Shown here piece by piece: positions 6,079 to 28,330 of a stretch of 39,208 nucleotides of DNA. Origin of the DNA: Thiohalobacter sp. (GTDB lineage Bacteria > Pseudomonadota > Gammaproteobacteria > DSM-19610); contig JALSRZ010000146.1 in NCBI GenBank assembly GCA_026984515.1, positions 1-39,208 on the forward strand, given 5' to 3'. The position numbers were made by a program, and so were the translations under genes. Below the pieces are notes generated by a model, which worked only from the letters and a program-made list of their open reading frames with translations, did no database searches and was not told where the DNA came from. How positions within the stretch are numbered: position 1 is the stretch's first letter; each line of letters opens with the position of its first letter.

Positions 6079-6108
6079 ACCGGATATAACAGGCAGGTCA
6101 ACAACTCC

Positions 6109-6190
6109 CACCTGCAGGAGCGGGCTTGCCCGCGAACAGTTCGGCGCCCCGCCTGGCCTTGTTCGCGGGCAAGCCTGCTCCTGCAGGGTC
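6109..6190. repeat. REP-like inverted pair between fis and purH
   Basis: CCTGCAGGAGCGGGCTTGCC opens the first arm; the second runs from GTTCGCGGGCAAGCCTGC to TCCTGCAGGG, with about 25 bases between. The arms are nearly perfect inverses over some 29 bases, so the pair can form a long hairpin. It fills most of the 134-base spacer and is the cleanest copy in the window. Confidence 0.82.
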
Positions 6191-6212
6191 ATTTACATAA
6201 CCAGGACGTATT

Positions 6213-7775: not shown

Positions 7776-7849
7776 ATTCGGTAATACCGTTTGCAACGTC
7801 CCCGCTCCTGCGGGGTCAGCTAACCTCTGGTTAATGCAGGGCTGAAGAT

Positions 7850-12724: not shown

Positions 12725-12774
12725 TGTGTCGTGTTGCTACCAGGTACAGGGTTAGTCCCCCCGGAAATCAAAGA

Positions 12775-12957
12775 CACCTTCCGCAGATACCGTCGCAGTT
12801 GTTGCCCTTGAACCGGAGGTTCAAGTGGGAGCGAGTGTCAGACCTAAGGCTTTCCACGCATGGCGGACATGCTCACGGGCCTGACAAGCCAACTCCCGGG
12901 GCCAAATATTAGGCTCAAGGAGATCTGAACTGCTAACGAGCACCGCAGAAGGTGCGC
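12775..12957 (-). ncRNA. ssrS: 6S RNA
   Basis: Regulatory RNA that binds sigma70-RNA polymerase holoenzyme in stationary phase by mimicking an open promoter. On the minus strand the 5' segment CACCUUCUGCGG pairs with the 3' segment CUGCGGAAGGUG as a 12-bp closing stem, giving about 180 nt, the expected size. Further 6S hallmarks are GAGCCUAAUAUUU, GUGAGCAUGUCCG, AAGCCUUAGG, the CUUGAACC-UCC-GGUUCAAG hairpin near the 3' side and ACUGCGACGG. Position between zapA and the cyclo-ligase gene, same strand, matches E. coli. A TATACT -10 lies just upstream on the minus strand; ends are approximate. Confidence 0.93.
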
Positions 12958-20398: not shown

Positions 20399-20774
20399 TT
20401 TACGCTTCCGGTGAGGTAAGTGCCGGTGCACGCTGCCGGGCTGTCCGGCTTGTCAGTCAGGTACTCATTGCAGGTCTGCAGGGTTGTTACTTTAAATCAC
20501 TGCTGTCCCGTTAACCCTGGAGCGCGCCTGCAGGTGAGGGCATGGAACCGGTATCGCCCGGTCAGGACCGTCTGCCGCAGGGATGCGGCAGTCGAGCGGC
20601 CAGGGATGGCAGGTTCCGCGTGTCCTGAGCGGGCGATACCGGTTCCATGTCCGGGTAGCCCGACCTGGCTCAAAACGTACCTGCCGCTTATGTTTCAGTC
20701 ACGTGGTTGGCGGGTTAACGGGACAGCAGTGACTTTAAATATGTAAGTAACACGTTTTGCGCTACACTGCGCCT
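20399..20774. other. 376-base spacer with a nested palindromic element
   Basis: No gene is seen. Almost all of the right two thirds is the repeat described at 20491-20739. The left part (20399-20490) has no recognised feature. A possible -10 (TACACT, 20763-20768) lies just before the HxlR-type gene. Confidence 0.7.
20491..20739 (+). repeat. Nested palindromic element, left copy
   Basis: Three layers. Outer inverted repeats of 27/28 bases, beginning TTTAAATCACTGCTGTCCCG at 20491-20517 and mirrored at 20712-20739 with one gap. Inner 28-base arms at 20541-20568 and 20622-20649 with one mismatch. A 53-base core, 20569-20621, with hairpin CTGCCGC-AGGGAT-GCGGCAG, then GTCGAGCG, then hairpin GCC-AGGGAT-GGC. 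Positions 20498-20686 recur inverted at 21983-22172, beyond the HxlR-MOSC pair. The core recurs at 28214-28267. Confidence 0.88.
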
Positions 20775-21176
20775 ATGAGTGGAGCGAGCCCGGAAAGAGA
20801 AAAACCGCCTGGCTGCAAGCGTTCAGCCTGTGGTGTGGCCAGTACCCTCGACCTGCTGGGCGACAAGTGGACCCTGCTGGTGGTGCGGGACCTGCTGCTG
20901 GGCAAGCGCACCTACAGCGAATTCCAGAAATCCCCGGAAGGGATCCCGACCAATATCCTCGCCGAACGGCTGCGGCGCCTGCAGCAGGCGGGCATTATCG
21001 AAAAAATGCAGTACCAGGATCGCCCGGTGCGCTACGCCTATACGCTCACCGACAAAGGGCGTGACCTCGGGCCGGTGCTGCGCAGTATGGTGGTCTGGGC
21101 GAACAAATATATACCCGGAACCTTTACCCTGGAGGAAGTGGACGCCATGATCGGGCAGGTGGGCAGGGACGCATGA
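20775..21176 (+). CDS. HxlR-family transcriptional regulator
   Basis: 133 residues, the size of a one-domain winged helix of the HxlR/MarR-like class. CSVA-type opening is seen as CGVASTLDLLGDKWTLLVVRDLLLGKRTY, then NILAERLRRLQQAGIIEK (recognition helix) and the wing YAYTLTDKGRDLGPVL. N-terminal Cys residues (Cys14, Cys19) are the kind that act as redox or electrophile sensors in this family. The ATG is chosen over an upstream TTG at 20757. It overlaps the MOSC gene by four bases (ATGA), so it probably controls that gene and itself. Confidence 0.9.
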   Translation: MSGASPEREKPPGCKRSACGVASTLDLLGDKWTLLVVRDLLLGKRTYSEFQKSPEGIPTNILAERLRRLQQAGIIEKMQYQDRPVRYAYTLTDKGRDLGPVLRSMVVWANKYIPGTFTLEEVDAMIGQVGRDA

Positions 21177-21973
21177 ACATTACTGAAATCAATATCTACC
21201 CGATCAAATCCACGCGCCGCATTGCGCTGACGGAAAGCGAGGTGCTGCCGCGGGGGCTGCCCTGGGACCGGCGCTGGATGCTGGTCGATGAACAGGGGAA
21301 ATTCATTACTGCGCGCCAGCACCCGACGCTGGCGATGGTGGAAACCCGTTTCGACGGTGACCAGCTTACGGTCAGTGTGGCTGACCGCACGCCGCTGCAG
21401 TTGCCTTTGCAGGCACCTGCCGGGCAACCGCGCAAAGTCACTATATGGAAGGATCAGTGCGACGCCATGCCGGTCAGCGCACAGGCGGATGCCTGGTTTT
21501 CGGACTACCTGGGCCTGCGCTGCCAGCTGGTGCGGATGACGGATGAACTGGTGCGCGGCGTGGACCCGAAATTCGCGCAGCACGGTGACGAGGTAAGCTT
21601 TGCCGATGGCTTCCCGATGTTACTGATCAGTGAGGCATCCCTGAAAGATCTCAACAGCCGCCTGGATACGCCGGTGTCCATGCGCCGCTTCCGGCCCAAC
21701 CTGGTGGTGGATGGCGAGCAGCCTTACGCAGAAGACCACTGGCAGCGACTGCGCATCGGTGCCGTCGAGTTCGAAGGCGTGAAAAACTGTTCGCGCTGCG
21801 TGTTTACCACCATTGACCCGGATACCGGCCGCAAAAATCCTGACAGGGAGCCCTTGCGCACCCTGAGCAGTTACCGGCGGCGCCCGGAGGGTGGCGTGTT
21901 TTTCGGGCAGAACCTGATACCGCGCAGCGGCGGGGTAATTCACGTCGGGGATCCGGTAGAGGTTTGCGGGTAA
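21173..21973 (+). CDS. MOSC domain protein (YcbX/mARC-like)
   Basis: 266 residues. An N-terminal MOSC_N beta-barrel (INIYPIKSTRRIAL, WDRRWMLVDEQGKFITARQ) precedes the MOSC domain with VKNCSRCVFTTIDPDTG; one of Cys206/Cys209, probably Cys209, is the molybdenum ligand by comparison with mARC and YcbX. YcbX has an added C-terminal 2Fe-2S ferredoxin domain; this protein ends before one, so electrons must come from a partner. The family reduces N-hydroxylated compounds, which suits an HxlR-controlled detoxification unit. Both genes lie between inverted copies of a palindromic element. Confidence 0.9.
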   Translation: MNITEINIYPIKSTRRIALTESEVLPRGLPWDRRWMLVDEQGKFITARQHPTLAMVETRFDGDQLTVSVADRTPLQLPLQAPAGQPRKVTIWKDQCDAMPVSAQADAWFSDYLGLRCQLVRMTDELVRGVDPKFAQHGDEVSFADGFPMLLISEASLKDLNSRLDTPVSMRRFRPNLVVDGEQPYAEDHWQRLRIGAVEFEGVKNCSRCVFTTIDPDTGRKNPDREPLRTLSSYRRRPEGGVFFGQNLIPRSGGVIHVGDPVEVCG

Positions 21974-21982
21974 GCAGCAAAC

Positions 21983-22172
21983 CGGCAGGTACGTTTTGAG
22001 CCAGGTCGGGCACCCCGGACATGGAAGCGGGATCACCCGGTCAGGACACGCAGAACCTGCCATCCCTGGCCGCTCGACTGCCGCATCCCTGCGGCAGACG
22101 GTCCTGACCGGGCGATCCCGCTTCCATGTCCTCACCTGCAGGCGCGCTCCAAAGTTAACGTGGCAGCGGTGA
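21983..22172 (-). repeat. Nested palindromic element, right (inverted) copy
   Basis: Inverted version of 20498-20686. The inner 28-base arms are at 22020-22047 and 22101-22128 with one mismatch, and the core is at 22048-22100, nearly identical to the left one. Compared with the left copy the arms differ at several places (ACCGGTAT versus AGCGGGAT), and the opposite arm changes to match, which keeps the pairing. The outer repeat is seen on one side only. The core motif strand here is the minus strand. Confidence 0.85.
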
Positions 22173-22379
22173 GCTTCCTTAACAGATTGATTCCATTGCA
22201 TGAGATTGCCGCGCTGTCCGCCCCCCTGAGCGCGAAGCGTCGTTTCCTGTCCGTTTCGCGGTGAGGGGACGTTCCGGCAGGGGGCAGTGATCGCTTATTT
22301 GCCTGTTTTGGCTGGTGAAGTTTTGCGGCTTGGCGGCATCCGGCCAGCAGGGTATAGTCTGCGCTCGATCTCGTACTGC
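22173..22379. other. Spacer between palindrome and glycine riboswitch
   Basis: The first 60 bases include AGATTGCCGCGC in an A/T- and C-rich setting, a partial inverted copy of the CATTGCG-type repeat (GCGGCAATCT). The remainder holds the presumed gcv promoter. GCAGGGTATAGTCTGCGC at about 22348-22365 includes TATAGT, a plausible -10, about 25 bases before the aptamer, but no good -35 was found. Confidence 0.4.
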
Positions 22380-22590
22380 TGCGGGAGAGGATCGGCGCGG
22401 ACAGGTTTTCGCAGCCGGTCGCCGAAGGCGCAACTCGCTCGGAATCGCTCAGGCAAAAGGACCGTAGCAGCAGGTCTGGACTTCGTTCAGACCGGATGGA
22501 CTCTGGAGAGCGGCCGGGTTTTGTGAGCCGGCCCACCGAAGGGGAAGGCACGATTCCCGTGCCCACACTCTCAGGTTACCGGACAGAGGA
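22380..22590 (+). ncRNA. Tandem glycine riboswitch
   Basis: Two aptamers in series sense glycine and usually turn on glycine cleavage genes. Aptamer 1 opens with GGGAGAGG, has GCCGAAGGCGCAA and closes CGCTCAGGCAAAAGGACC. Aptamer 2 opens GACTCTGGAGAG, has CCACCGAAGGGG and closes ACTCTCAGGTTACCGGACAG followed by AGG. These are the family's conserved blocks in the correct order. A hairpin (22591-22613: GCGACGG/CCGTCGC) follows directly with no T-run. The gcvT start is 77 bases beyond, so control is expected through the gcvT leader. Confidence 0.94.
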
Positions 22591-22613
22591 GCGACGGTTT
22601 TTTGAGCCGTCGC
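22591..22613 (+). promoter_or_regulatory. Hairpin after the glycine aptamers
   Basis: GCGACGG pairs with CCGTCGC around a T-rich loop. It starts one base after aptamer 2 and is the most likely part of the expression platform. The loop, not the 3' side, contains the T-run, so it is not a standard intrinsic terminator. It does not cover the gcvT start region, 55 bases away. Confidence 0.5.
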
Positions 22614-24365: not shown

Positions 24366-24395
24366 CCTGCAGGCCCGCTCCTGCAGGGATTTTTA
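24366..24395 (+). terminator. REP-derived hairpin with T-run between gcvH and gcvPA
   Basis: CCTGCAGG-CCCGCT-CCTGCAGG forms an eight-pair stem with a six-base loop, and GATTTTTA follows at once. It comes from the REP-like family, but the added T-run gives it the shape of a weak intrinsic terminator. It could lower gcvPA expression relative to gcvT and gcvH. No test of function was possible. Confidence 0.4.
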
Positions 24396-28158: not shown

Positions 28159-28183
28159 AGATCACACGCGGGCAACAGAGTGC

Positions 28184-28297
28184 GCGCTGCTTACCCGGCC
28201 GCTGGTTTACAGGCCGTCGGCAGCAGGGATGTTGCCGTCGAGCGTACAGGGACGTATTCACAGCACGCCTGTAAACCAGCGGCCGGGTAAGCAGCGC
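28184..28297 (+). repeat. Nested palindromic element, third copy (perfect 30-bp arms)
   Basis: The arm GCGCTGCTTACCCGGCCGCT plus ten bases (28184-28213) is exactly reverse-complementary to 28268-28297. The 54-base core 28214-28267 matches the 20569-20621 core in layout: hairpin CGGCAGC-AGGGAT-GTTGCCG, then GTCGAGCG, then TAC-AGGGAC-GTA. The arms share nothing with those near 20.5 kb, while the core is conserved and its stems change in a paired way. It lies between gcvPB and the kinase gene, motif strand plus. Confidence 0.9.
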
Positions 28298-28330
28298 ATC
28301 GTTTAACAGCATATTGTCTGGAGAAGTTAC

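Follow-up and report, generated by a model that had tools for sequence, protein, structure and literature searches.

The window analysed here is a stretch of 39,208 nucleotides of Thiohalobacter sp. (Gammaproteobacteria; GenBank GCA_026984515.1, contig JALSRZ010000146.1). A hairpin is located at 28184-28297, between gcvPB and a pfkB-family gene, 25 bp past a stop codon. It is formed by two arms that are exact reverse complements and enclose a 52-nt spacer (Table 1). The first-pass annotation had described this pairing over 30 nt; it is real and in fact extends over 31 nt. The same annotation considered the core of this hairpin homologous to that at 20541-20649, which is the case, and a third copy, absent from it, is found at 22017-22131. 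The 122-nt strand with the copy at 28184-28297 has a folding energy of -89.2 kcal/mol, a stability that no dinucleotide shuffle reaches (z = -10.9).

Table 1. Repeat copies of the window and their parts (strand "." = not oriented).
Feature	Position	Strand	Basis
Left target-site duplication ACTTTAAAT of the family B MITE	20489..20497	.	Sequence, flank comparison
Family B MITE, 234 bp, with its own arms and the twin-loop core at 20541-20649	20498..20731	+	Core pattern match 20578-20606
Right target-site duplication ACTTTAAAT of the family B MITE	20732..20740	.	Sequence, flank comparison
Second family B copy, terminal repeats degraded	21980..22172	-	Core pattern match 22063-22091
Left basal-stem arm, family A copy	28184..28214	+	31-bp perfect inverted repeat
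Conserved 47-nt core	28219..28265	+	Column composition, alignment with 152 other short cores
Core hairpin 1, GGCAGC-AGGGAT-GTTGCC, ANGGAX hexaloop 28225-28230	28219..28236	+	Invariant loop positions, stem covariation
Core hairpin 2, GTAC-AGGGAC-GTAT, ANGGAX hexaloop 28248-28253	28244..28257	+	SELEX-site match, conservation, covariation
Right basal-stem arm	28267..28297	+	31-bp perfect inverted repeat

Several other features are present in the window. A tandem glycine riboswitch (22372-22596, Rfam RF00504, two aptamers) directly precedes the gene of the glycine cleavage T-protein, which starts at 22602, and a 6S RNA gene (RF00013, 93.8 bits) lies on the minus strand at 12774-12954. Another family of repeats, made up of CCCGCAGGAGCGGGCTTGCCCGCGAACAG and its inverse, occupies positions 1130-1222, 6107-6195, 7796-7822 and 24369-24395; we take it to resemble the REP sequences of Pseudomonas type. 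Between the two genes that flank the hairpin (window 28159-28330) a diacylglycerol-kinase-like gene is present in the genomes G001, G003, G005, G008, G009 and G020, while the host, G007, G011 and G012 lack it. This gene, once located there, was considered as the source of the hairpin and rejected: it accounts for the larger gap in the relatives, not for the hairpin.

A search of the 3.37-Mb host genome with the core pattern CAGGGAYGNNGNCGNCGAGCGNNCAGGGA gave 40 matches (none with the reversed-pattern control), which fall into two families. About 30 copies, including both other copies of the window, are near-identical together with their arms (family B). About ten, including the copy at 28184-28297, carry a different arm each, always paired (family A). 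The contrast between arms and cores noted earlier is thus a contrast between two families sharing one core. The idea that most copies have the same arm, raised there as the mark of a chance fusion, applies within family B and not to family A. Likewise, the arms at 28184-28297 share no sequence with those of family B, as was stated, but they do with other copies of their own family. The comparison with loci L111 and L087 of the sister species G007, L150 of G012, L204 of Thiogranum, and L241 and L236 shows the window arm to be a diverged member of a weak family A consensus, roughly GTGCGTTGCTTACCCGACATGCNGTTTACAGACC as read by eye. A genome search with locus L111 as query recovered the window copy in an alignment of 127 nt at 84%.

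Family B is a MITE distinct from family A, and its arms moved within a larger unit. The unit is 234 bp long and has the terminal inverted repeats CACTGCTGTCCCGTTAAC and a target duplication of fixed length, about 9 bp, as derived from the flanks of 16 copies; these are the features by which a MITE is recognized. For family A, ends and target duplications are not clearly defined. The two family B copies of the window form a 193-nt inverted repeat with 92% complementarity, and in their opposite orientations they bracket the gene of a MOSC-domain protein (21173-21973) together with a short upstream ORF. Together the bracketing copies may behave as a composite unit, although a separate target duplication surrounds the first.

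Distribution of the core is wide. Relatives of the same genus and family have from 0 to 40 copies each. A genome scan gave at least 120 loci, and Lysobacterales, Tenderia, Thiogranum, Thiohalomonas, Sedimenticola, Halorhodospira and Microbulbifer are among the groups that carry them. When the class was sampled evenly, 21 of 274 genomes, belonging to 16 families, contained the core, often in multiple copies, and the control gave no match. Three genomes carry it inside MITEs with unrelated ends: the host (family B), SZUA-186, where the carrier is a composite of two inverted hairpins, and G054, where the carrier ends in AAATACGTGTTCCGAAT. Cargo of phages or plasmids was considered and rejected: nothing in phage and plasmid collections convincingly matched a core of the window type.

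These data bear on another reading of the hairpin, an ordinary intrinsic terminator or a 3' end stabilising hairpin between gcvPB and the pfkB-family gene. The very high stability and the position shortly past a stop codon would suit it. On the other hand, the hairpin is not followed by a T run, the core is conserved across 16 families of the class with copies in both orientations, and the corresponding site in G011 and G012 lacks a copy. This explanation is therefore extremely unlikely.

The mobility of the element, one of the possibilities raised in the first-pass annotation, is demonstrated by pairs of filled and empty sites. Compared with the empty sites in G007, both arms of the host copies L008 and L044 lie within the insert, which at L008 is bordered on both sides by ATCCAG, a duplication of 6-7 bp. 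In the opposite direction, L113 and L111 of G007 have clean empty sites in the host. No clear target duplication is seen at L044, L113 and L111. Two further sites were unusable for this comparison, L117/G000 due to a family B copy at the site and L123/G019 due to a contig edge. A related element is present in the Pantoea agglomerans plasmid CP016890 and absent from the plasmids CP144369 and CP031650 (~98% identity); here a 28-bp terminator is duplicated around the element and both arms are wholly inside.

It had also been proposed that the element copies the flank of its target as an inverted arm at insertion. What can be said for such copying is that the left arms of L111 and L113 are alignable with the empty site over their outermost 7-9 nt, and only there (1 and 2 mismatches, respectively). 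The whole arms are inside the insert at L008, at L044 and in the Pantoea plasmid, no empty site contains a whole arm, and the arms of unrelated insertions have a consensus in common, all of which makes this origin of the arms very unlikely. The arms belong mainly to the mobile unit, and copying of the flank is at most a minor, outer effect.

Simple ORF calling gave a gene on either side of 88 family A copies, and relative to the core these flanking genes are oriented as ++ in 25, -- in 29, convergent in 25 and divergent in 9. Insertion thus avoids promoter regions and has no preferred strand. This speaks against any fixed function as a cis-regulator of host mRNAs and favours an RNA used by the element itself or by any transcript running through it.

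The arms were said to be replaced wholesale while remaining perfectly paired. The pairing within each copy stands, and the replacement is overstated: the arms drift from a shared ancestor with compensation. Five orthologous pairs of host and G007 copies provide 150 arm positions. These contain 24 double changes that keep Watson-Crick pairing and 8 single ones, while 2.3 double changes would be expected if the arms changed independently. The left arm of the window copy, for instance, differs from its G007 orthologue at 5 of 30 nt, with four differences compensated and one left as G.U. The flanks are 82-91% identical in three of the four orthologous pairs with comparable flanks. Among 98 copies with distinct arms (pre-selected by a stem score of 12 or more, so that about one in ten is dropped), 25 consecutive stem columns are paired in 91-100% of copies, and shuffled columns pair at only 39-92%, mostly below 60%; all four Watson-Crick types occur in 23 of the 25 columns. 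Isolated arm mismatches on the core strand are G.U in 76 cases and A.C in 23 (P = 8.5e-8, a significance inflated by relatedness of the copies). A stem kept by structural selection, the other possibility named in the first-pass annotation, fits the excess of double over single changes, the paired columns and the prevalence of G.U over A.C better.

Pairing could be maintained with no selection as well, if template switching between the arms (quasi-palindrome correction) copied mutations from one arm to the other. Fifteen of the 24 double changes are transversion pairs, which cannot pass through G.U (the other nine are transition pairs), single-step intermediates are rare, and the inverted copy in the host (L005) relative to G007 (L112) shows that arms do recombine. 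Symmetric correction, however, would not give the excess of G.U over A.C, and both short core hairpins covary, where switching is less likely. Clustering of the double changes was tried as a proof of template switching and dropped, as it is not significant (P 0.23). Unselected pairing of this origin is rather unlikely; template switching may operate together with selection.

Some peculiarities of individual arms should be mentioned. The inverted copy concerns the orthologous sites L005 (host contig C31) and L112 (G007 contig C93), between which the hairpin is turned relative to its flanks. At L147/L059 (G019, contig C18) a palindrome of ~102 bp runs into a gene end, possibly as an assembly fold-back, and several contigs of draft genomes end within these hairpins. 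In Halorhodospira (L201, L202, L221, L226 and L243) the arms reach 49-66 bp, are nearly perfect and unique to each copy, and mostly finish at or near the stop codon of the neighbouring gene. That these long arms copy gene ends was considered and dropped, because most clear cases start at the neighbouring stop codon.

The conserved core consists of two adjacent hairpins with the general form GGCNGC-ANGGAX-GCNGCC and GTAC-ANGGAX-GTAT, the latter varying to GTCC..GGAC in SZUA-186 and G109 and to GCC..GGC in family B. In loop 1 (C-A-N-G-G-A-X-G) the C, the A, the GGA and the closing G are invariant in all 130 copies, with N being G, T, A or C and X being T, C, A or G. The fixed positions of loop 2 are kept at 95-100% (GGA at least 99%, A 98%), with N and X variable again. 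The stems covary: pair 3/14 of the core shows all four Watson-Crick types with 45 double changes, and the second pair of hairpin 2 alternates between A-T and C-G. In the minimum-energy fold of the window copy the bases of hairpin 2 are paired in a register shifted by a few bases, so this hairpin rests on conservation, not on folding energy. Some cores are longer owing to extra small hairpins right after an AGGGAC loop (L114, L118, L127, L130, L139, L148, L275 and L276); in the Pantoea loci L275 and L276 the insert sits in hairpin 1 and adds a further ANGGAX loop.

A high-affinity Csr/Rsm site is defined as an ANGGAX hexaloop placed directly on a stem (PMC4005645), and both core hairpins have this form with N and X free. 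Hairpin 2 of the window copy coincides with the SELEX consensus of CsrA, RUACARGGAUGU, apart from X = C; one CsrA dimer bridges two sites 10-63 nt apart with an optimum above 18 nt (PMC7652899). The gap between the two GGA motifs of the core is 20 nt, and two csrA genes are present in the host genome.

The same signature has to be weighed against a purely DNA-level role, where a transposase would recognise the folded single strand through its loops, as RAYT does on REP, with no function of the RNA. The element is mobile, palindromic and independent of orientation, and conservation of the loops on one strand together with tolerance of G.T is expected of single-stranded DNA too, so that the strand bias could be explained by one-strand recognition as well. 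Hairpin 1 of the window copy is also preceded by a CGTC tetranucleotide (28215-28218), as in CGTC REPs (PMC3733652). This tetranucleotide is not kept elsewhere (CATC, CGTT, TGTC), and other features of CGTC REPs are absent. In both loops N and X are free next to a fixed A and a fixed GGA, a signature of Csr/Rsm sites, and we know of no transposase with a preference for ANGGAX loops. Since the same core is found in MITEs whose ends are unrelated, it does not serve as the end on which a single enzyme acts. Recognition at the DNA level is, on balance, unlikely.

Probably, the copies represent a short non-autonomous mobile palindrome, MITE- or YPAL-like, which carries a predicted twin CsrA/RsmA RNA site on a paired but drifting stem. 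The insert includes both arms and the 47-nt core with its two hairpins, set on a basal stem of 20-60 bp. Upon read-through transcription of the core strand the two loops may bind one CsrA/RsmA dimer, with the stem as an RNA scaffold insulating both loops from the surroundings. Only the pairing of the stem would then matter, so the arms of different copies could drift apart as long as changes are compensated. Their turnover would be increased by inversion of the whole hairpin between the arms and possibly by arm-to-arm copying during replication. Binding might titrate CsrA, stabilise transcripts or make insertions tolerable. That it benefits the element is a first guess, suggested by the random orientation relative to host genes. 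The lack of an orientation preference also counts against the proposal, as many copies would then not be read in the sense direction within a host mRNA. In a broader version, which we put forward tentatively, the copies would form a pan-gammaproteobacterial mobile class with the twin CsrA/RsmA site as a cargo captured by several unrelated MITEs, dozens of dispersed copies acting across the genome as an evolvable CsrA sponge or tether that serves persistence or mobility of the element.

Work on global RNA regulators, CsrA among them, usually centres on a small number of dedicated sRNAs and mRNA targets. If the proposal is true, mobile repeats with high-affinity twin sites would scatter CsrA sites over the genome and alter the free pool of the regulator, and the dispersed occurrence of the Rfam motif TwoAYGGAY and of Yersinia Ysr224 would be explained. 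The element also offers a natural experiment on the way in which the arms of long palindromes stay matched: with dozens of paired changes in orthologues at ~90% identity, selection and arm-to-arm copying become separable. A literature search for a link between such mobile elements and CsrA gave none, and CsrA goes unmentioned in a review of prokaryotic MITEs from 2024 (PMC10969869).

The closest known motif in architecture is TwoAYGGAY (Rfam RF01731, clan CL00106 together with CsrB) from Gammaproteobacteria, which likewise has two ANGGAY-loop hairpins on a long basal stem. Its loops are AYGGAY, whereas those of the window copy are AGGGAT and AGGGAC and its hairpin 2 is much shorter; among the copies collected here the architecture is the same with ANGGAX loops, and AYGGAY loops occur only in some (e.g. 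L189). With the TwoAYGGAY model a B-type relative in L213 scores 43.6 bits (gathering 43) and the Pantoea element 25.1 bits, while the window copy gives no match up to E = 10 and the family B window copy none up to E = 1. TwoAYGGAY is typed as cis-regulatory in Rfam, in contrast to the mobile, orientation-random copies described here; a 2010 survey includes it in a table and does not describe mobility (PMC2864571). Rfam matches to miRNAs (mir-BART3, mir-2070 and others) are far below gathering scores and were discarded as chance matches given by any perfect long stem.

YPAL of Yersinia (RU-2) is, like the present copies, a short mobile palindrome with internal inverted repeats, and its target duplications of 3-26 bp lie at or near dyad symmetry (PMC2229807). 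The duplications seen here, 28 bp at the Pantoea terminator and 6-7 bp at L008, with none clear at L044, L113 and L111, may be of a similar kind. The presumed homology with YPAL runs through Ysr224 (RF02770), which is the antisense of the same core: on the opposite strand its alignment spans the entire core both in the Pantoea element (E 8e-8) and in L270 (E 0.0058), the window copy scoring 20.3 bits against a gathering score of 70. Genomes of E. coli gave no match to the Yersinia-type core. From these relations we infer that TwoAYGGAY, Ysr224, YPAL and the copies described here are one group.

CsrB/RsmZ sRNAs also present repeated ANGGAX hexaloops on stems as high-affinity protein sites (PMC4005645). 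They have many loops, whereas there are two here, dispersed in tens of mobile copies for which no dedicated promoter was identified. REP sequences mobilised by RAYT are likewise small dispersed palindromes mostly not found between divergent genes; the GTAG tag is absent here, CGTC is not conserved, and the size and the two-loop architecture differ. ERIC, NEMIS and RUP are also non-coding intergenic MITEs of 100-300 bp with terminal repeats and target duplications (~9 bp in family B). Unlike in these elements, it is the interior core and not the ends that is conserved across unrelated hosts, and MITEs that have no relation in their ends, family B and those of SZUA-186 and G054, contain this core.
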